A DNA stretch of 37,074 nt. Source: Acidimicrobiia bacterium (GTDB lineage Bacteria > Actinomycetota > Acidimicrobiia > Spongiisociales > Spongiisociaceae). A model generated the notes under the pieces. It saw only the letters and a program-made list of their open reading frames with translations, searched no databases and had not been told where the DNA came from. Each line of letters opens with the position of its first letter. Positions within the stretch are counted from its first letter, which is position 1. The stretch covers positions 1-37,074 of the forward strand of contig WTGI01000037.1 in NCBI GenBank assembly GCA_011523635.1, given 5' to 3'. This document shows, piece after piece, positions 261 through 31,358 of the stretch. The translations under genes and the position numbers were made by a program.

Positions 261-2030
261 ATGAATGCTTCCGGTAGGTTTCCCTCCGATCTCGAGATTG
301 CTCAGGCCGCTCCGGTCACACCGATAACCGAGATCGCCGAGTCGATCGGGGTCCGTGCCGACGAGTTGATTCCGTACGGTTCCACCAAGGCCAAGGTCCA
401 CCTCGACATACTGAAGCGGGTCGGCGCCCGTCCACCCGGTAAGTACATCGACGTCACCGCGGTTACACCCACACCTCTCGGGGAAGGCAAGACCACCACC
501 ACGATCGGCCTGGTTCAAGGACTGGGACTCCTCGGGAAGAAGGCCGTCGCCGCCATCCGCCAGCCCTCGATGGGACCCACATTCGGGATCAAGGGCGGGG
601 CGGCAGGGGGTGGCTACAGCCAGGTCATCCCTATGGACGAGTTCAACCTGCACCTCACCGGCGACATGCACGCCATCAGCGTGGCCCACAACCTGGCGGC
701 CGCGGCCATGGACGCCCGCTGGTACCACGAGGGACGTATGAACGACGCCCAGCTCGAGGCGATCGGGCTGGAGCGGCTCAACATCGACATGTTCCGGGCC
801 CAGTGGCGCCGGGTGGTCGACGTCAACGATCGGGCACTGCGCAACGTGGTGCTGGGCCTGGGCGGTCGTATCGACGGCCGGCCCCGCGAGACGGGTTACG
901 ACATCACCGTGGCTTCTGAGCTGATGGCGATCCTGGCGCTCACCGACGGTCACGACTACGCCTCGGCGCTCCGCGACCTCAGGGCCCGCTGCGGGCGGAT
1001 CGTGGTCGGGGCGGACACCGACGGCAACACCATCTCCCTCGACGACCTGGGCGTGGGCGGCGCGGTCACCGTCCTGATGAAGGACACGCTGCATCCCACG
1101 CTCATGCAGACGCTCGAAGGCCAGGCCGCCTTCGTCCATGCGGGTCCGTTCGCCAACATCGCCCATGGCAACTCGTCGATCCTGGCCGACCGGGTGGCGC
1201 TCCAACTGGGGGAGTACGTGGTGACCGAGTCGGGGTTCGGGGCCGACATGGGCATGGAGAAGTTCTTCAACATCAAGTGCCGCGCCTCCGGCTTGAAGCC
1301 CGACGCGGTAGTCCTGGTGGCCACGGTGCGGGCGCTCAAGACCCACGGTGGCGGCCCTCGGGTGGTGGCCGGCCGGCCGCTCGCCCCGGCCTACACGGAG
1401 GAGAACCTGCCACTGCTGGAGGCCGGCCTCATCAACCTGGTGGCGCATATTGAGAACGCCCGCCGCTTCGGGATCGAGGTGGTGGTGGCGGTCAATACCT
1501 TCCCGACCGATACGGAGAACGAGCGCCGGGTGGTCGAGCGGGCCGCCCGGGAGTCGGGAGCGCTGGCGGCGGTCACGACCAGCCACTGGGCGGATGGCGG
1601 GCGCGGTGCGCTGGAGTTTGCCGAGGCGGTGGTGGACGCCTGCGAACGGCCTTCGGATTTCCGTTTCCTATACCCGTCGGAGCGGTCGATCAAGGAGAAG
1701 ATCGAGACCGTCTGCCGGGAGATCTACGGCGCCGGTGGGGTCGACTTTTCCGCCGCCGCGGCGCGCCAGATAGCCGACTTCGAGCGGGCCGGGATGGGGA
1801 ACCTGCCGATCTGCATGGCCAAGACCCCCCTCTCGATCTCGCACGATTCCTCCATGAAGGGGCGGCCGCGCGGGTTCACCGTGCCGGTTCGTGAGGTCAG
1901 GGCGTCGGTCGGCGCCGGTTTCCTGGTGGTGCTCCTGGGCGAGATCCGCACGATGCCGGGACTGGGGGCGCGGCCGGCATACATGAATGTGGACATCGAT
2001 GAAGACGGCAAGATCATCGGCCTGTTCTGA
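261..2030 (+). CDS. fhs: Formate--tetrahydrofolate ligase (formyl-THF synthetase)
   Basis: This cytosolic enzyme joins formate to tetrahydrofolate with ATP, giving N10-formyl-THF. It also runs in reverse, releasing formate and making ATP. The 589-residue product is slightly longer than the usual 550-560. It shows the family ATP-binding loop TPTPLGEGKTTTTIG (residues 69-83), the block RQPSMGPTFGIKGGAAGGGY and the segment DEFNLHLTGDMHAI. The ATG follows CGGAG at a usual spacing. A VOC gene and a formate dehydrogenase follow on the same strand. The context therefore suggests either formate assimilation into folate C1 units or oxidation of C1 units through formate to CO2. The sequence does not show which direction dominates. 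The family assignment is secure. Confidence 0.97.
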   Translation: MNASGRFPSDLEIAQAAPVTPITEIAESIGVRADELIPYGSTKAKVHLDILKRVGARPPGKYIDVTAVTPTPLGEGKTTTTIGLVQGLGLLGKKAVAAIRQPSMGPTFGIKGGAAGGGYSQVIPMDEFNLHLTGDMHAISVAHNLAAAAMDARWYHEGRMNDAQLEAIGLERLNIDMFRAQWRRVVDVNDRALRNVVLGLGGRIDGRPRETGYDITVASELMAILALTDGHDYASALRDLRARCGRIVVGADTDGNTISLDDLGVGGAVTVLMKDTLHPTLMQTLEGQAAFVHAGPFANIAHGNSSILADRVALQLGEYVVTESGFGADMGMEKFFNIKCRASGLKPDAVVLVATVRALKTHGGGPRVVAGRPLAPAYTEENLPLLEAGLINLVAHIENARRFGIEVVVAVNTFPTDTENERRVVERAARESGALAAVTTSHWADGGRGALEFAEAVVDACERPSDFRFLYPSERSIKEKIETVCREIYGAGGVDFSAAAARQIADFERAGMGNLPICMAKTPLSISHDSSMKGRPRGFTVPVREVRASVGAGFLVVLLGEIRTMPGLGARPAYMNVDIDEDGKIIGLF

Positions 2031-2470: not shown

Positions 2471-2482
2471 AAAGGAGGTGAT
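2471..2482 (+). promoter_or_regulatory. Full-length Shine-Dalgarno before the selenoprotein gene
   Basis: AAAGGAGGTGAT lies 3 nt before the ATG at 2486. It is complementary to essentially the whole anti-SD end of 16S rRNA, far stronger than other sites in this window. It fixes the start of the formate dehydrogenase catalytic gene. An ATG at 2481 is in another frame. Confidence 0.8.
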
Positions 2483-2485
2483 GGA

Positions 2486-4420
2486 ATGCCGCGGGTGACC
2501 CTTCCCCGATTGACCACCCCGTACGTGCGACGGGACGGCGAGTTGGCGCCGGCGACATGGGACGAGGCGCTCGACCGGGCGGCGGCCGGGTTGAGCCGCC
2601 ATACCGGTGACGCCTATGCCATGTTCTCGTGCTCCAAGGCGACCAACGAGATGAACTTCCTGGCCCAGAAGTTCGCCAGGCTGGTCATGGGGTCGAACAA
2701 CATCGACTCGTGTAACCGCACCTGACACGCTCCCTCGGTCGCCGGTCTGGCGGCAGTGTTCGGAGTAGGAGGCGGGACATGCTCCTACGAGGAGATCGAG
2801 ACCACGGACGTGATCCTGCTCTGGGGTTCCAATGCCCGGGAGGCCCATCCGATCTTCTTCCATCACCTGATGAAGGGCGTCCGTAGCGGCGCCCGGCTGT
2901 ACGCCATCGACCCGCGCCACACCACCTCGGCCATGTGGGCCGACGTCTGGCTCGGGCTGGAGGTGGGCTCGGACATCGCGCTGGCCAACACGGTCGCACG
3001 CGAGATAATCGCGTCCGGCCTCCAACACGAGGAGTTCATCCGGCACTCCACTACGGGTTTCGAGGCCTATGCCGAATCGGTGGAGCCCTGGACGTTGCAG
3101 CGGGGCGCCGAGGTGACCGGCCTACCCCCCGAAGTCATCCGCCGTATGGCCCACGACTATGCCACCGCGGAGCAGGCCCAGATCTGCTGGACGCTCGGCA
3201 TCACCGAGCATCACAACGCCACCGACAATGTCCTCGCCCTCATAAACCTGGCCCTCCTGACCGGCCATGTGGGTCGCTACGGATCGGGATTGGTTCCGAT
3301 CCGCGGCCAGAACAACGTCCAGGGCGGGGGCGACATGGGCGCGCTGCCCAACCGGCTACCCGGTTTCCAAGAGATCGAGGACCCGGTCTCGCGCGGCAAG
3401 TTCGAGGCCATCTGGGGCCGCTCCGTGCCAGACCGGCCCGGCAAGCATCTGTCGCTGATGCTGGAGGCGATGGAGCACGGCGAGATAACCGCCCTGTACG
3501 TGATCGGCGAGAACCCTGCCCAGTCGGAGGCTCGCTCCGACCATGCCCGCCACCTCCTGCGCGGGCTGGACTTCATGGTGGTACAGGACATCTTCATGAC
3601 CCGGACTGCCGAGTTGGCCGACGTGGTGCTCCCGGCGGCGGCAGGATGGGCCGAGACGGACGGTACGGTGACCTCCTCCGAGCGGCGGGTGCAGCGGGTC
3701 CGTAAGGCTCTCGACCCTCCGGGGGATGCTCGAGATGACCTGCACATCATCTCGGCTCTAGCCGAACGGATGGGCCGGGGCTGGGGGTATCCGACCGCCG
3801 AGGAGGTTTGGGACGAGCTCCGCAGCCTCTCACCCAACCACACCGGTATGTCGTACCGCCGGCTCGCCGAGGCGGGTGGCCTGCAGTGGCCCTGTACGGA
3901 CGAGGACGACCCCGGCACCCTGTTCCTGCACGGTGATCTTTGGGACGATCCGCTGCCTCGCGACCCGGCCCCCTTCTTCCCGACGCCGTGGGCCCCGCCG
4001 GTGGACGAGTTGAGCGAGGATTACCCGATCCGGCTCACCACGGGTCGCCGGCTCGACTCGTACAACACCGGCGTCCAGTCCGGGGGCTACTCATCCCCGC
4101 TGAGGACCTCGGTCGCAGTCGAGGTGGCTCCGGCGGACGCAGCCGCTCTCGGCGTGGCCGAGGGTGACCTGGTCCGTGTCGTATCGCGCCGGGGGTCCGT
4201 GGAGGCGCCCTTGATGATCGACCGGTCGCTCCGTAGAGGCCTGGCCTTCATGGCCGTTCACGATCCCGATGCGGTGGACGTGAACCTTCTCACCATCGAC
4301 GCCTGGGATCCCAAGTCGGGTACTGCCGAGTTCAAGGCCACCGCGGTCCGTATCGATCCGTTGCGCAAGGATGCCGGGAGACGATCGGAGCTCCGTCCCG
4401 TGGCAAACTACCGGGCATGA
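2486..4420 (+). CDS. fdhA: Formate dehydrogenase, selenocysteine-containing molybdopterin catalytic subunit (C-terminal part of a split alpha chain)
   Basis: This is the catalytic part of an NAD-linked formate dehydrogenase that oxidises formate to CO2 at a Mo/W-bis-MGD centre. The reading frame is continuous from 2486 to 4420 except for one TGA at 2723, which I read as Sec80. The context CNRT-U-HAPSVAGL matches the family's active site (Sec or Cys followed by His). Further blocks agree: GITEHHNATDNVLALINLALLTG, PIRGQNNVQGGGDMGALPN, a C-terminal molybdopterin dinucleotide-binding domain from about residue 510 (LTTGRRLDSYNTG), and 644 residues in total. The usual N-terminal Fe4S4 domain is absent. 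The protein starts at LPRLTTPYVRRDGELAPATWDEAL, which normally follows that domain. The missing part is encoded at 6294-7283. Treating the two open frames as separate genes would be an annotation error. Confidence 0.93.
2723..2760 (+). promoter_or_regulatory. UGA(Sec) codon and bacterial SECIS hairpin
   Basis: The TGA is at 2723-2725. Exactly 18 nt later the apical loop GGTCT (2744-2748) sits on the stem CGCC/GGCG (2740-2743 with 2749-2752). A T at 2739 on the 5' side is bulged or wobble-paired. The loop sequence and its distance from the UGA match the E. coli fdhF SECIS recognised by SelB. This supports recoding rather than a nonsense mutation. It predicts selA, selB, selC and selD elsewhere in the genome. 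Confidence 0.88.
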
Positions 4421-4454
4421 GAGCTGTCGGCCACCACAGAGCTGTCGGCCACCA
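4421..4454 (+). repeat. Tandem direct repeat between fdhA and the NuoEF fusion
   Basis: GAGCTGTCGGCCACCA occurs twice in perfect form, at 4421-4436 and 4439-4454, an 18-nt period starting immediately after the fdhA stop. A small CCCC/GGGG hairpin follows at 4461-4475. The function is unknown. The repeat could be a replication-slippage duplication, or it could affect spacing or translation between the two genes. Confidence 0.7.
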
Positions 4455-4519
4455 AGCCATCCCCTTTGTCAGGGGTTTCCCGGCCACCGTCTAGGAGAAC
4501 TCCCATAGACCTGCGACTC

Positions 4520-6301
4520 ATGTCCGCCGAGCCGACCTCCGCGGAGCGGTTGGCCGTTGACGCGTTGCTAGGACCCCCCTCCCCGTCGGGGGATGGGGAA
4601 CCTTCGCAGCCCGCCGAGCGGCGCGTGGCGTTCGGTGGCTATCGCCGCTCGGTGGAGAGCCGCCACATGTTGCTGCCGGCGCTCCATGCGGTGAACGACG
4701 CGATCGGATGGGTCAGCGCCGGGGCGCTCAACTACATTTGCGAGCGGCTTCTGGTGCCGCCCGCGGAGGCGTACGGGGTGGCGGGTTTCTACGCGCTGCT
4801 GTCATTGGAGGAACGACCGGCCCGGGTGGCTCACGTGTGTGACGACGTGGCCTGCCGGACCATGGGCGGCGCCGAGATCCTGGAGGGCCTGGGAGGGCGC
4901 CCCGATGTGCATCCCAGCCCGTGCCTGGGTCAGTGCGACCAGGCCCCGGCTGTCTTCTTCCAGCGGGCCGGCGAGGAGGACACGGTGCTGGTCGGCGCTA
5001 CTTCTGACCGCGTCGAGGAGGTGCTCGACGGCGGCTCCGCCGGGGAGATCCCGCCCAGCGCGCCGCAGGCGGGCGATCCGTCCTTGCGCCTGCTCAAGCG
5101 TATCGGCACGGTCGATCCGACCTCCCTGGAGGCCTACAGGGAGTCCGGCGGTTACCGGGCGCTGGCCCGGGCAGTAGAGATGGGGCCGGATGGGGTCATC
5201 GCCGAGATTAAGGCGTCCGACCTCCGGGGACGGGGGGGTGCCGCCTTCCCGATGGGGATCAAGTGGGAGGCGGTGGCGCGGTCACCTGCCATGCCGCACT
5301 ACCTGATCTGTAACGCCGACGAGTCGGAGCCGGGCACGTTCAAGGACCGGGCGATCATGGAGGGCGACCCCTTCGCGGTGATCGAGTCGATGACCATCGC
5401 CGGGCTGGCCACCGGGTCCGAGCGCGGGTACCTGTACATCCGGGCCGAGTATCCCCTAGCCCAGTCCCGCCTCGAGAACGCCATCGACCGCGCCCGGGCG
5501 GAGGGTCTCCTCGGCGCGGACGTGGCCGGCTCCGGCCGCGCGTTCGAGATCGAGATCCGGCGGGGTGGAGGCGCCTACATCTGCGGTGAGGAGACCGCCC
5601 TGATGGAGTCCATCGAGGGCAAACGGGGAGAGCCGCGCAACAAACCTCCCTTCCCGACCCAGGTGGGCCTGTTCGGACGTCCCACTGTGATCAACAACGT
5701 CGAGACCCTGATCAACGTGCTCGACATAGTGCTCGAAGGGGGAGCCGCGTTCGCGGAGATCGGAACCGGGGAATCGACCGGACCGAAGCTGTTCTGCCTG
5801 GCGGGCGCCGTGGAGCGACCCGGCGTGTACGAGGTGCAGTTCGGGAGGACGTTGGGAGAGCTGATCGATCTGGCCGGTGGCGTCACCGGAACCGGCCGTA
5901 TAGGAGCGGTGATGCTCGGGGGCGCGGCCGGGGTGTTCGTCGGCGAGGACCATCTCGACATGCCGCTGACCTTCGAGGATGCCCGCGCCCGCGGCGCCAC
6001 CCTCGGCTCCGGCGTGATCCTCGTGTTCGACGACCGCACCGACTTCCCGGACATAACCCGGCGGATCGCCCAGTTCTTCCGGGACGAGTCCTGCGGCCAG
6101 TGTGTACCCTGCCGGGTCGGCACCGTCCGCCAGGAGGAGTTGCTGGCTCGGCACGATGGCGGCGAGCCGTTGGACGAGGATCTGTTCGAGGAGGTGGCGC
6201 GGGTGATGATGGACGCCTCGATCTGCGGGCTGGGGCACACTGCGTCCACCGCGATCCGGTCGGTCATCGATCTGGGCCTGCTGGAGCGGTCTCGTGGCTG
6301 A
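4520..6301 (+). CDS. NuoE-NuoF fusion, NAD-linked diaphorase subunit of formate dehydrogenase
   Basis: This fused electron-transfer subunit passes electrons from formate through FMN to NAD. Residues 1 to about 170 form a NuoE-like thioredoxin-fold [2Fe-2S] domain (CDDVAC ... CLGQC). The rest is NuoF-like. It has the nucleotide/FMN motifs LRGRGGAAFPMGIKW, CNADESEPGTFKDR and GGGAYICGEETALMESIEG, then the SLBB region, then the C-terminal 4Fe-4S ligands CGQCVPCRVGT and SICGLG. I favour ATG 4520 because the NuoE domain begins nearby. A TTG at 4466 would add 18 Pro/Arg-rich residues. AGGAG at 4493-4497 is unusually far from 4520, so the start is uncertain. The stop overlaps the next gene by 8 nt, which indicates an operon with both halves of the dehydrogenase. 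Confidence 0.92.
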   Translation: MSAEPTSAERLAVDALLGPPSPSGDGEPSQPAERRVAFGGYRRSVESRHMLLPALHAVNDAIGWVSAGALNYICERLLVPPAEAYGVAGFYALLSLEERPARVAHVCDDVACRTMGGAEILEGLGGRPDVHPSPCLGQCDQAPAVFFQRAGEEDTVLVGATSDRVEEVLDGGSAGEIPPSAPQAGDPSLRLLKRIGTVDPTSLEAYRESGGYRALARAVEMGPDGVIAEIKASDLRGRGGAAFPMGIKWEAVARSPAMPHYLICNADESEPGTFKDRAIMEGDPFAVIESMTIAGLATGSERGYLYIRAEYPLAQSRLENAIDRARAEGLLGADVAGSGRAFEIEIRRGGGAYICGEETALMESIEGKRGEPRNKPPFPTQVGLFGRPTVINNVETLINVLDIVLEGGAAFAEIGTGESTGPKLFCLAGAVERPGVYEVQFGRTLGELIDLAGGVTGTGRIGAVMLGGAAGVFVGEDHLDMPLTFEDARARGATLGSGVILVFDDRTDFPDITRRIAQFFRDESCGQCVPCRVGTVRQEELLARHDGGEPLDEDLFEEVARVMMDASICGLGHTASTAIRSVIDLGLLERSRG

Positions 6302-7283
6302 GGTCACCCTGGCCGTCGACGGGACCGCCGTAACGGTTCCGGGCGGGTCGACCATCCTCGACGCCTGCCGCGCCCTGGGCAACGACCAGCCCACCCTCTG
6401 CTACCTGGACAACCTGACCCCGGTCAACGTCTGCCGGGTATGCGTGGTGGAGGTGGAGGGCAACCGCACGCTAGTGCCCTCATGCAGCCGCCCGGCCGAG
6501 GAGGGGATGGAGGTCGCCACCGACAGCGAGCGGGTGCGCCACTCCCGCAAGATGGTCTACGAGTTCCTGGCCTCCTCGGTCGAGCTGGACCTGGTCGATG
6601 ACGAAACCGTGGCGTGGATGGACCGCTACGGCTGCGATCCCGACCGCTACGGCCCGCCGGCGGATCCGGCCGGCGACCGCGATCGGCGCAAGGCTGGCCA
6701 TCACCGGATCGGGCCCGGGACCGCGGCCGAGACCGTGCACCAGCCTGTCAAGGTGGACAACGAGCTCTACGTGCGGGACTACTCCCGGTGCATCCTCTGC
6801 TACAAGTGCGTGGAGGCCTGCGGGGAGGACGCCCAGAACACCTTCGCCATCGCGGTGGCCGGGCGGGGCTTCGACGCCCGCATCTCGACCGAGTTCGACA
6901 CCGGGCTGACCGACTCGGCCTGCGTCTTCTGCGGGAACTGCATCGGCGTGTGTCCCACCGGCGCCCTCATGTTCCGCAGCGAGTACGAGTTGCGTCAGGC
7001 AGGCATGTGGGAGGAGGAGGGCCAGACCGTCACGCGTACCATCTGCTCGTACTGCGGGGTCGGTTGCAACCTGGACCTCCACGTCCAGGACAACCGGATC
7101 GTGAAGGTCACCTCGCCGATGGACCACTCGGTCACCTCCGGACACCTCTGCATCAAGGGACGGTTCGGTTACGAGTACGTCCAGGAGGTCGGCGACCTAG
7201 CCGTCACGCCCATCGACGAGATTCTCCGGAGAGCCAGGATTGACGACCGAGGGCCGCGCCGGCGCCCCGAGCCGCGCGCCTGA
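6294..7283 (+). CDS. Fe-S subunit equal to the N-terminal part of formate dehydrogenase alpha (2Fe-2S, 2x4Fe-4S, Molybdop_Fe4S4)
   Basis: This is a 329-residue electron-wire protein. Residues 1-80 are a plant-type/NuoG [2Fe-2S] domain with Cys36, 47, 50 and 64. A bacterial-ferredoxin pair follows (SRCILCYKCVEAC and CVFCGNCIGVCPTGAL). The last 80 residues hold the Molybdop_Fe4S4 motif CSYCGVGC ... GHLCIKGRFGYEYV. In ordinary FdhA/NuoG-like chains this block continues directly into the catalytic domain. Here it ends after about 35 non-conserved residues, and the catalytic domain is encoded upstream at 2486-4420. The GTG start follows CTGGAG and overlaps the NuoEF stop by 8 nt. The two proteins presumably assemble into one functional alpha unit, with the Fe4S4 domain supplied in trans. 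Confidence 0.92.
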   Translation: MAEVTLAVDGTAVTVPGGSTILDACRALGNDQPTLCYLDNLTPVNVCRVCVVEVEGNRTLVPSCSRPAEEGMEVATDSERVRHSRKMVYEFLASSVELDLVDDETVAWMDRYGCDPDRYGPPADPAGDRDRRKAGHHRIGPGTAAETVHQPVKVDNELYVRDYSRCILCYKCVEACGEDAQNTFAIAVAGRGFDARISTEFDTGLTDSACVFCGNCIGVCPTGALMFRSEYELRQAGMWEEEGQTVTRTICSYCGVGCNLDLHVQDNRIVKVTSPMDHSVTSGHLCIKGRFGYEYVQEVGDLAVTPIDEILRRARIDDRGPRRRPEPRA

Positions 7284-8478
7284 GGAGTTCATCGGGCCGG
7301 GCCGGGCCGCGGTCCTCTTCTGCGCCGTGATCATGGTCACCCATGGCTTCGGCAACGGCCTGGTTCCCGCCCTCCTACCCCGCATCGGCGAGAGTTTCGG
7401 GTCCGGCTACGGCACCCTCGGCCTGGCCGTGTCCTCCGGACTCCTCGCCTATGGCATGGGCTCCGCCGTGGGCGTCAGGGTCGTGGACGTGTTCCCGCTG
7501 CGGGGAATCATCCTGGCCGCGCTGGCGGTCTGCGTGGTCGGGTTCCTGGTGGCGGCGTGGGCCAGATCGCCGGTCGCTCTGGCCGGCTCGGTGGTGCTCA
7601 TCAGCCTGATGGCGCCGATCAGCTGGTCGGCGTCGGTACGGCTCATCGCCCGGGTGGTGAAGCCTTCATCCCTCGGCCGGGTCACGGTCGTGGCGAGCTC
7701 GGGCGCAGGAGTCGGCGGCGGCATCAACGGTGTGTTCGCCGTCTTTCTGGCCGGGCTGGACGAGTGGAGGCTGGCCTTCGTGATCACAACCGTCGTGTCC
7801 GTGGCGACCGCGCTGGCCATCCTCGTGCTGCTACCGCGCGCTCCTGTCTCGGAGCCCCGCCTGGCCAGGACAGCCGTGCGGCAAAGGGACTGGAGGGATA
7901 CCTGGGCGGTCCGGACCGGTCGGATGGTGATCCTGTTCAGTGTCGCGGCGGGCCTCGGCGGCTTCACGTTCGTCAGCTACATGTCGGCCACGGCGGTGGA
8001 CGAGTTCGGCGTGTCGCCGGTGGCGGTGGCCGGGCTGTGGTGGATCGCATCGTCGGTCGGGCTGATGGCGGCCGTGGTCATGGGCGCCTGGTCGGATCGG
8101 GTGTCGCCGGTGCTGGTCATAGGCGTGATCTCCCTCGTCTACTTCTCCGGCCTGGTCGTCCTGGTCCTGACCTGGTCGTACTCCGGCCTGATGCTGGCTG
8201 CCGTGGGATTCGGGTTCTTCAACTACCCGATATGGGGATTGCTGGGCCACCTGGCCGGGCAGGGCATGGAACCGCGGCTGGCGGTGCGGGCCTTCTCGGG
8301 AGGCCTGACCGCGGCGGCCTGGTGTGCCACGTCGGGAATCGCCCTGGCCGGTTGGTGGATCGACCGGACCGGCAGCTTTCGCATCCCCGTCATCGCGCTG
8401 GCCGCCCTGAGCGGTCTGGTCACCGCCTGGATCACAACCGAGTACCTCCGCCAGCGGGCCAGGGGGTGGAGCGGGTGA
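7240..8478 (+). CDS. MFS transporter
   Basis: This 412-residue integral membrane protein has about 12 hydrophobic segments in two halves, separated near residue 200 by a basic cytoplasmic loop (RLARTAVRQRDWRD). That is the major facilitator layout. The TTG start is preceded by GGAG with 8-nt spacing. It overlaps the end of the Fe-S subunit gene by 44 nt, so it belongs to the formate dehydrogenase operon. The substrate is not evident. Operon context makes formate, oxalate or another one-carbon-related acid a fair guess, but I saw no OFA-specific signature. Confidence 0.85.
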   Translation: MTTEGRAGAPSRAPEEFIGPGRAAVLFCAVIMVTHGFGNGLVPALLPRIGESFGSGYGTLGLAVSSGLLAYGMGSAVGVRVVDVFPLRGIILAALAVCVVGFLVAAWARSPVALAGSVVLISLMAPISWSASVRLIARVVKPSSLGRVTVVASSGAGVGGGINGVFAVFLAGLDEWRLAFVITTVVSVATALAILVLLPRAPVSEPRLARTAVRQRDWRDTWAVRTGRMVILFSVAAGLGGFTFVSYMSATAVDEFGVSPVAVAGLWWIASSVGLMAAVVMGAWSDRVSPVLVIGVISLVYFSGLVVLVLTWSYSGLMLAAVGFGFFNYPIWGLLGHLAGQGMEPRLAVRAFSGGLTAAAWCATSGIALAGWWIDRTGSFRIPVIALAALSGLVTAWITTEYLRQRARGWSG

Positions 8479-8500
8479 AGAAACACTTGGTGGTCGTGCC

Positions 8501-8666
8501 TAGTGGTCTGTCTGCGAAACAACCGGGTGCTCTGGCGGCCATCGGCGTCCCGTCGCTGCGTTCCGCTTCCTCAACGTACCACTGCGGGTACGCTTTCGTC
8601 AGCGGGCCTTGCGAGAAACACCGCTGCCTCGCCATACCACACCGCCATTGCACAGACAGACCACTA
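8501..8666. mobile_element. MITE-like inverted-repeat element, copy 1
   Basis: The element is bounded by TAGTGGTCTGTCTG at 8501-8514 and its exact complement CAGACAGACCACTA at 8653-8666. If the outer TA is a duplicated target dinucleotide, the terminal repeat proper is GTGGTCTGTCTG, which would fit IS630/Tc1-type mobility. It has no coding capacity of its own. The interior holds a hairpin with 6-bp arms, CGTACC/GGTACG (8575-8592). A second copy of the same orientation lies at 9232-9400, close to 90% identical by eye. The element fills most of the gap between the MFS gene and the Yip1-like gene. Confidence 0.82.
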
Positions 8667-8760
8667 GACGCTCGCCGTCGCGGTGGTAGCCTGTTTGATA
8701 TCCCGCCGGCCCTAGTCGCTCCGCTTGTTTCTGCCGGGAGGCCGTAATCTCAAGGACGTC

Positions 8761-9234
8761 ATGCTTGCCCAGATGATCCGCGCCGGCCGCCTCGATCGGC
8801 CTTTCTACGAGTCGCTGCTCTTCGACCAGTACGCAACCGGCAACGCGGTGGTGATGATCATCATCGCCGGGATCCTCCCGCAGCTGTGGCCGTTCTCGCT
8901 GGTCGGCGCGGCGTTCGCCATCCTCGCCAGCATCCTCCGGGCCCTTCTGGTGACCGCCGCCGTGTGGGCGGCTTCGGTTTACATCTTCAAGCGCCACGGA
9001 AATCACCGGGCCACCTTCAGGATGGTCGGTTTCGCCAACGTCGCCTTCTTCCCGCTGGTCCTGGCCGGCCGGCCGGGCCTGCTGGGGTTGGTGGCTCTGC
9101 TGATCACCGCCGTGTGGTTCTTCCTCGCCATACGAACCGCGGTCGGTGCCCAGTTCGACCTCGAGCATCCCGAGAACAGCTTCGTCGCCGCCACCGGCCT
9201 GCTCGGCTGGTACCTGTCAATCATCCTCTTTTAG
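8761..9234 (+). CDS. Yip1-like multi-pass membrane protein
   Basis: This 157-residue membrane protein has about five hydrophobic segments. Its N-terminus (MIRAGRLDRPFYESLLFD) resembles actinobacterial Yip1/YIF1-domain proteins; the function is unknown. I start at ATG 8761, preceded closely by AAGGA. A TTG at 8725 would add 12 residues of no apparent similarity. The TAG stop is the first three bases of the second inverted-repeat element, so the present C-terminus (WYLSIILF) may have been set by insertion. Identical-orientation repeats on both sides make the gene look like the cargo of a composite unit. Confidence 0.75.
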   Translation: MLAQMIRAGRLDRPFYESLLFDQYATGNAVVMIIIAGILPQLWPFSLVGAAFAILASILRALLVTAAVWAASVYIFKRHGNHRATFRMVGFANVAFFPLVLAGRPGLLGLVALLITAVWFFLAIRTAVGAQFDLEHPENSFVAATGLLGWYLSIILF

Positions 9235-9400
9235 TGGTCTGCCCGCGAAACAGCTTGGCGTGCTCTGGCGGTCATCGGCGTCCCGTCGCTGCGTTCCGCT
9301 TCCTCAACGTGCCGCTGCGGGCACGCCTTCGTCAGCGGGCCTTGCGAGGAACGCCGCTGCCGACGCCATACCACACCGCCGTTCCACAGACAGACCACTA
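9232..9400. mobile_element. MITE-like inverted-repeat element, copy 2
   Basis: The 5' end TAGTGGTCTG and the 3' end CAGACAGACCACTA match copy 1. The left arm has diverged slightly (GCCCG for GTCTG). The internal hairpin at 9308-9325 has arms CGTGCC/GGCACG. Relative to copy 1 (CGTACC/GGTACG), an A-T pair has become a G-C pair on both sides. That compensatory change suggests the folded form matters. The first three bases form the stop codon of the upstream membrane-protein gene, and truA starts 17 nt after the element ends. Confidence 0.82.
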
Positions 9401-9416
9401 GCCCGCCTCCGCCCGG

Positions 9417-23230: not shown

Positions 23231-23332
23231 AGGCTTTCCTTTGACCCATATGCATTCGACCATACGATCGGACTACCGGCTGTGTGGCTTCTGCCCCAGG
23301 CCTATAGGCGAGAGGCTCCGCTGGAGGTCTAT
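23231..23332 (+). pseudogene. Decayed fragment of the MBL-fold gene at 30396
   Basis: The stretch 23257-23332 matches 30704-30779 at 67 of 76 positions by hand count. Weaker similarity with small indels extends back to about 23231 (30678 in the parent). The parent segment encodes residues about 95-128, including the zinc motif THLHSDH. Here that part is out of frame after single-base indels. The downstream part still reads WLLPQAYRREAPLEVYR, in frame with the ABC substrate-binding protein. That creates a false N-terminal extension of that gene. Confidence 0.85.
23241..23268 (+). promoter_or_regulatory. Candidate promoter of the ABC operon inside the MBL fragment
   Basis: TTGACC (23241-23246) and TACGAT (23263-23268) are separated by 16 nt and look like sigma70-type -35 and -10 boxes, about 85 nt before the ABC substrate-binding protein gene. 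The intact MBL gene has the same two hexamers with a 17-nt spacer. If used, the promoter was recruited from coding sequence. Confidence 0.45.
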
Positions 23333-30395: not shown

Positions 30396-31358
30396 ATGAC
30401 TCCGACACGAGGAACTCCGTGGCTGCTCAGCGAGATTCGCTTTGCGCCCGGAGCCCCCCGCAACCTGGCGCCTGACGGGGCGACGACACTTGCAGTCGTG
30501 CTGGGTTCCGGAGGAGTAACACCGAACCCGCATCGGCACGGTCCTAGCGCGGCGGTCATCGTCAACGACTCGACTTACTTGATAGATGCCGGTGAAGGGG
30601 TCTGGCGCAGCCTTGCCTGGGCTGCGGTGTCCCACCCTGATCTGCTCGCCGAACACCTCGCCCCGTACAGGCTTACCAGGCTCTTCTTGACCCACCTGCA
30701 CTCCGACCATACGATCGGACTGCCGGCTGTGTGGCTCATGCCCTGGGCCTATGGGCGCGAGGTTCCGCTGGAGGTCTACGGCCCGGTCGGCACACGAAGC
30801 TTGATGGAGCATTTGGAGGAGGCTTATCAGGGAGATCTGCAAGAACGTAGGTTTGGCCCCGGCGCTCCGGAGAGGATGGTGGATGCGCACAAGACGACTC
30901 CACACGAGATCAAGGATTCAGGCAAAGTCTACGAAGATGACAATGTGAAGATCGAAGCATTTCATCATGCACATGGCAGTTTCGAACAGAACTTTGCCTA
31001 TCGTTTCACATCCCGGGATCGAGTGATTGCGTGGGCAGGAGACGGCCGGGTGGAGGGCCAGCTCGACAAGGCAGCCCAGGATGCAGATCTGTTCTTCTGT
31101 GAGCTATCCACCGAGGATATGATTGCGAACGCTAACTGGGGTGGAGAAACTGTCGAAGAGAAGGCAAGAACGATTTGGTCGTATCACATCCGGCCTAAGG
31201 AACTGGCGGAGTTTGCTACTGAAGTGAACGTCAAGCAACTCGTGACGATGCACGAGCGAAACTATACAGACCCGTATGAACCCGACGCGTTAATGGAGGA
31301 ATTCAAGCGCCACTACTCGGGTACCGTATATTCGGCACGCGACGGCGATGTGTTCTAG
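30396..31358 (+). CDS. Metallo-beta-lactamase-fold hydrolase (RNase Z/AtsA-like)
   Basis: This 320-residue MBL-fold hydrolase has the zinc motif LTHLHSDHTIG (His100, His102, Asp104, His105). It also has a later FHHAHGS, an AGDGRV strand and a distal MHERNY His. GGGGAGG precedes the ATG. It resembles the tRNase Z/arylsulfatase-type branch, which includes phosphodiesterases and lactonases. Within a nucleoside-type cluster a cyclic-phosphate or ester hydrolase is conceivable. A fragment of this gene (residues about 95-128) recurs upstream of the ABC operon. Base composition is lower in G+C than the adjoining PLP-enzyme gene. Confidence 0.88.
   Translation: MTPTRGTPWLLSEIRFAPGAPRNLAPDGATTLAVVLGSGGVTPNPHRHGPSAAVIVNDSTYLIDAGEGVWRSLAWAAVSHPDLLAEHLAPYRLTRLFLTHLHSDHTIGLPAVWLMPWAYGREVPLEVYGPVGTRSLMEHLEEAYQGDLQERRFGPGAPERMVDAHKTTPHEIKDSGKVYEDDNVKIEAFHHAHGSFEQNFAYRFTSRDRVIAWAGDGRVEGQLDKAAQDADLFFCELSTEDMIANANWGGETVEEKARTIWSYHIRPKELAEFATEVNVKQLVTMHERNYTDPYEPDALMEEFKRHYSGTVYSARDGDVF

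Follow-up and report, generated by a model that had tools for sequence, protein, structure and literature searches.

Soluble NAD-linked formate dehydrogenases (FDHs) of the FdsABG and MeFDH1 kind carry their alpha subunit as one polypeptide, and in MeFDH1 NuoE and NuoF are fused. In the FdhF-type FDHs, represented by E. coli FdhH (PDB 1aa6/1fdi) and by FdhF of the T. kivui HDCR (7qv7), the Fe4S4 domain is found at FdhF's own N-terminus. The metal-adjacent cluster is located on the catalytic chain in the fused NAD-linked FDHs compared here, in FdhF and in most known Mo/W-bis-MGD oxidoreductases. Division of a bis-MGD enzyme is already known from the formylmethanofuran dehydrogenase FwdB/FwdD, whose Mo/W bis-MGD catalytic chain extends over two genes, but at another boundary: the cut lies at the other end, with FwdD forming the C-terminal beta-barrel and the Fe4S4 domain staying on FwdB (PMC3458885). 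Furthermore, a Chloroflexi MAG from Lost City carries a cluster of focA, fdhA, nuoG, hoxF and hoxE (PMC7117926) that, going by its gene names, could be the same split cluster as the one analyzed here; a split goes unmentioned in that paper's passages on the cluster. We found no published description of the alpha cut in the full-text literature searched, which has subscription journals mostly outside its coverage.

Here we analyzed a 37,074-nucleotide stretch of contig WTGI01000037.1 from an Acidimicrobiia bacterium (hereafter the window). Like FdsABG(D) and MeFDH1 (6tg9, 7vw6, 8j83), its split FDH combines a bis-MGD site with Molybdop_Fe4S4, two Fer4, Fer2, NuoF and NuoE domains, which would form a similar chain of clusters. 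The NuoE and NuoF diaphorase genes typical of FdsABG/MeFDH1 are present in the split operon and fused, as in MeFDH1; the split clade lacks conserved extra A5-type cysteines. However, two open reading frames encode the alpha chain, both in the window and in every split homologue, a selenocysteine replaces the cysteine, and the gene order is catalytic - EF - FeS where the fused enzymes have E - F - alpha, so that the re-ordering with the catalytic gene first and the Fe-S gene last, claimed in a first-pass annotation of the window, holds against the fused NAD-linked FDHs. With the FdhF-type enzymes the catalytic half shares the Sec/Cys-His and RGQNNVQG motifs, and 7qv7 was its best sequence match (E 2.4e-152); in contrast to FdhF, the Fe4S4 domain is a separate protein in the split enzyme.

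Gene layout and position of the cut

The three genes of the cluster lie on the forward strand. The first (2486..4420) encodes the catalytic half of the alpha chain, a selenoprotein of 644 aa in which Molybdopterin and Molydop_binding were the only Pfam domains. It is followed by a NuoE-NuoF fusion (4520..6301; an alternative TTG start at 4466 is possible), the FMN/NADH module, with 2Fe-2S_thioredx, Complex1_51K, SLBB and NADH_4Fe-4S domains, and by the N-terminal Fe-S half of the alpha chain (6294..7283), a HoxU/NuoG-like protein with Fer2_4, two Fer4 and Molybdop_Fe4S4 domains, whose start sits within the last codons of NuoEF and overlaps its stop by 8 nt. The Molybdop_Fe4S4 domain (PF04879, 79.2 bits; residues 245-297 of the Fe-S half, 7026..7184, forward strand) is thereby encoded in trans. 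Against the NuoG profile TIGR01973 the Fe-S half reached 138.7 bits, well below the cut-off of 470, and a separate NuoG-like frame of 1155 aa was present on another contig of the same genome.

The first-pass annotation had placed the cut exactly between the Molybdop_Fe4S4 domain and the catalytic domain, and a profile search agreed with this: in TIGR01591 (Fdh-alpha) the cut falls after position 51 and before position 52, within the linker that joins Molybdop_Fe4S4 to Molybdopterin. The Fe-S piece matched positions 1-51 and the catalytic piece 52-672 (E 4.4e-187 for the latter), with no loss and no overlap. The two proteins scored 623 and 57 bits against a curated cut-off of 666, neither being a full-length match; as the pair covers every profile position, it would work like one alpha chain without being one polypeptide. 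A Shine-Dalgarno sequence, AAAGGAGGTG (2471..2480, forward strand), precedes the catalytic half, its GGAGG ending 7 nt before the ATG at 2486; the strength of this signal indicates that the new N-terminus is real and that no upstream domain is missing.

The two halves were also compared with known structures. The catalytic half is only 34-38% identical to the 6tg9, 7vw6 and 8j83 structures, and its predicted model (pLDDT 84.6) matched residues 341-981 of MeFDH1 (8j83_A) with a Z-score of 43.5 and residues 304-937 of R. capsulatus FdsA (6tg9_A) with a Z-score of 39.2. The model of the Fe-S half was weak (pLDDT 63); by sequence, this half closely matched residues 24-305 of 6tg9_A, the N-terminus of a fused alpha chain. 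Placed side by side, the sequence match of the Fe-S half (24-305) and the fold match of the catalytic half (304-937) tile the fused 6tg9_A chain.

The cluster is flanked upstream by a formate--tetrahydrofolate ligase gene (fhs, 261..2030, forward strand), a recurring neighbor in Acidimicrobiia-type loci, and downstream by an MFS transporter gene (7240..8478, forward strand; PF07690 MFS_1), which overlaps the end of the Fe-S gene and possibly encodes a C1-acid carrier. At other loci, the gene upstream of L046 encodes FTHFS, and those upstream of L049, L063 and L069 are 77, 70 and 69% identical to the window's fhs. The neighbors that recur near the cluster, namely fhs, fdhD, a MobA-like gene and an MFS gene, fit the role of a formate dehydrogenase.

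Conservation of the split genes and of selenocysteine decoding

A search with the Fe-S half as query returned 80 homologous loci. The order catalytic - NuoEF - Fe-S on one strand was observed in 79/79 loci with all three genes (77 distinct ones, the window included), which is beyond chance, and median intergenic gaps were 63 nt between catalytic gene and NuoEF and 50 nt between NuoEF and the Fe-S gene. What had appeared as a local oddity, for which a search of related genomes had been advised, is thus an old, clade-wide arrangement. By their depositors' labels, some of which come from single MAGs, the 77 loci belong to nine phyla (Actinomycetota, Chloroflexota, Acidobacteriota, Planctomycetota, Eremiobacterota, Dormibacterota, Eisenbacteria, Spirochaetota and Myxococcota), and nearly all members are uncultured MAGs. 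Relatives of the Fe-S protein at 96-98% identity include MAGs labelled Acidimicrobiia. In Armatimonadota (two genomes, labelled Armatimonadetes and Chthonomonas) NuoEF and the Fe-S gene share one contig and the catalytic gene lies on another. Fe-S halves end a median of 17 residues past an LC[IV]KG motif and catalytic halves begin a median of 6 residues before an RLT motif, with a Shine-Dalgarno-preceded start in 66/79 homologues (some of them near-duplicates); the cut is thus at the same place throughout the split clade. No natural fusion of the two halves was found within the clade among the loci examined.

Residues expected to matter for the two halves were also conserved. The cluster ligands C251, C254, C258 and C286 and the lysine K288, which matches Lys44 of FdhH, were invariant in 55 Fe-S halves, while U80 and R273 were invariant in 48 catalytic halves and H81 was kept in 90% or more.

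U80 is specified by a single in-frame TGA (2723..2725, forward strand) in the context SCNRT-U-HAPS, at the Sec/Cys position of FdhF, where the selenocysteine would be expected to be a Mo/W ligand. UGA is kept in all split homologues that cover this site. A bacterial SECIS hairpin (2738..2754, forward strand) with a 6-bp stem and a GGUCU loop starts 15 nt 3' of the first UGA base; its loop is as in E. coli fdhF and of the kind found in FdhF-type genes. Rfam gave no SECIS match in the window, and the hairpin was instead judged by covariation: in 49 sequences 98.3% of stem cells were paired, three pairs were changed on both sides, and 0/500 shuffles reached as high a covariation score. Furthermore, the GGTCTG loop region was identical in every split homologue examined, and the genome encodes SelB (317.6 bits, neighbor in frame included), tRNA-Sec (77 bits) and FdhD. 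The in-frame UGA, the SECIS and the Sec machinery agree with the initial call of a selenoprotein.

We also analyzed how the halves are distributed across genomes. Among 301 Chloroflexota genomes, 32 contained both halves, five the catalytic half only and none the Fe-S half only, catalytic halves being called at 60% identity or more (37 genomes) and Fe-S halves at E 1e-70 (32 genomes); some of the five catalytic halves lacking an Fe-S half at this threshold lie near contig ends. In the window's family (15 genomes), 13 contained both halves and two neither. Loci with NuoEF and Fe-S genes and no catalytic gene nearby were considered as counter-examples and rejected, since the catalytic gene was present elsewhere in 4/7 such genomes and as a contig-end fragment in a fifth; in genomes G315 and G316 the Fe-S half was present and no split catalytic half was found. 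The distances of the two halves were correlated (0.53; 0/1000 permutations above 0.17), which may reflect shared ancestry only. Failure of the Fe4S4 domain to pair with the catalytic piece had been named at the outset as grounds for abandoning the idea of a split enzyme; co-occurrence in 32/32 and 13/13 genomes, together with the invariant ligands, speaks for pairing.

Proposed assembly of the two halves and alternative readings

Based on these comparisons, the locus very probably encodes a soluble NAD-linked Mo/W-selenocysteine FDH of the same kind as FdsABG/MeFDH1, in which the alpha subunit was divided by a single, ancient fission and a separate protein provides the Mo-proximal [4Fe-4S] cluster in trans. 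Formate would be oxidised to CO2 at the Sec-coordinated Mo/W of the catalytic half, which would contribute the bis-MGD together with the selenocysteine, histidine and arginine. The Fe-S half would dock onto it via its C-terminal Molybdop_Fe4S4 domain and thereby provide the proximal [4Fe-4S] cluster, from which electrons would pass to two more [4Fe-4S] clusters (Fer4) and a [2Fe-2S] cluster, all within the Fe-S half, and then to the Fe-S cluster and FMN of NuoF and on to NAD+. We infer the assembly, the electron path, NAD+ as the partner and the direction in vivo, and do so for each electron step because of homology to the fused enzymes.

Alternatively, the Fe-S half and NuoEF could form a general diaphorase for another enzyme, such as complex I or a hydrogenase, with the catalytic half serving another partner. 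The likeness of the Fe-S half to HoxU, HydA and NuoG N-termini and the location of the Armatimonadota catalytic gene on another contig are in line with this. However, only a Mo/W subunit needs a complete Molybdop_Fe4S4 domain with the electron-relay lysine, and the Fe-S half has both; the co-occurrence of the halves, their fixed order in 77 loci and the complete, separate NuoG of the genome also argue against a general diaphorase, which we regard as improbable. Electron-bifurcating complexes are built from similar parts, and an FDH resembling Hyl/Hyt (Hyl subunits are listed in PMC6085437) would also reduce ferredoxin. The best PDB match of NuoEF is indeed the beta subunit of the bifurcating Nfn-ABC. 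However, HydB-type beta subunits have a C-terminal ferredoxin domain after NADH_4Fe-4S, whereas NADH_4Fe-4S of NuoEF ends at residue 601/611 and Pfam found no C-terminal ferredoxin domain in this protein; moreover, in the Hyl complex the Fe4S4 domain stays on FdhF2. We therefore consider a bifurcating FDH similarly improbable.

Seen in one genome only, the in-frame TGA and the absent N-terminus would suggest decay of a formerly fused fdhA into a pseudogene, or an error of assembly. This reading is refuted by conservation and has a negligible probability, given that the same cut and UGA are kept in about ten phyla, that the genes are under purifying selection and the SECIS covaries, and that a strong Shine-Dalgarno precedes the new catalytic start. 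The dN/dS ratios were 0.10-0.19 for the catalytic gene, 0.13-0.19 for NuoEF and 0.07-0.14 for the Fe-S half, pointing to purifying selection on all three genes. Furthermore, the genome (~3.15 Mb, 97% complete) contained no fused FDH, its other TIGR01591 matches being NuoG and two unrelated Mo oxidoreductases. A second, intact fdhA beside a decayed split one, which had been put forward as a possible refutation, thus does not apply with no fused FDH and dN/dS at 0.07-0.19, and the split is an old redesign and probably a working one, not a broken gene.

Origin and distribution of the split arrangement

The split catalytic halves were at least 59% identical to that of the window, and the next relatives, fused or FdhF-type, at most 46%; the gap between them was empty, although an unsampled intermediate is possible, most of the fused sequences having come from Actinomycetota and plasmids. 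The split catalytic subunits formed one fully supported branch in each of two trees (100 SH-aLRT; 100/100); in the second tree its placement next to the fused and FdhF types had weak support (88/30), and the root is not fixed. As the related enzymes in the comparison carry this domain on the catalytic chain, we prefer a single ancient gene fission over a fusion as the origin of the split alpha subunit. Genes in the inspected fused operons are ordered E, F, alpha, fdhD and delta being close to them, and the split order corresponds to a rotation of E-F-N-C into C-E-F-N. Such a rotation might have proceeded through tandem duplication and loss of the outer parts; no intermediate was found among the loci compared.

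More tentatively, the split enzymes may constitute a separate, widespread subfamily in which the catalytic and proximal-cluster proteins are exchangeable parts, derived from one fission with a rotated operon and spread over about ten phyla. Dividing the chain in this way may allow the cofactor to be loaded ahead of attachment of the electron chain, or unlinked catalytic genes to be served by a single Fe-S module. With the split lineage it can be tested whether cofactor insertion, electron transfer or oxygen tolerance depends on having the cluster on the catalytic chain, and CO2-reduction work gains an FDH that is modular by nature. Annotation is likely to end the catalytic gene at its UGA and to list the Fe-S gene as NuoG-like; as a result, formate use may be underestimated among uncultured bacteria.

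Several variations were observed within the clade. The Fe-S half of the window's genus extends 40 residues beyond the KG motif, compared to the clade median of 17; in the window's own protein, residues 301-329 lie in this region. In the Chloroflexota loci L079 (3243-6030), L080 (4908-6004), L085 (3854-5991) and L184, 1-8 kb separate the catalytic gene from NuoEF, and the open reading frames tested in this interval in some Chloroflexota had no Pfam match. The MAG RHO1_bin_22 carries a full split cluster on each of two contigs (L064, L071), representing two copies or a strain mixture.

Elsewhere in the window, a 75-nt direct repeat (23257-23331 and 30704-30778; 89% identical, 7.4 kb apart) is possibly paralogous coding sequence. 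Furthermore, a dispersed repeat of ~170 bp, present at 8500-8672 and 9232-9401, was absent from the plasmid collection; with its terminal inverted repeats CTAGTGGTCTGTCTG ... CAGACAGACCACTAG and about 40 copies in the genome at 79-100% identity, it looks like a MITE.
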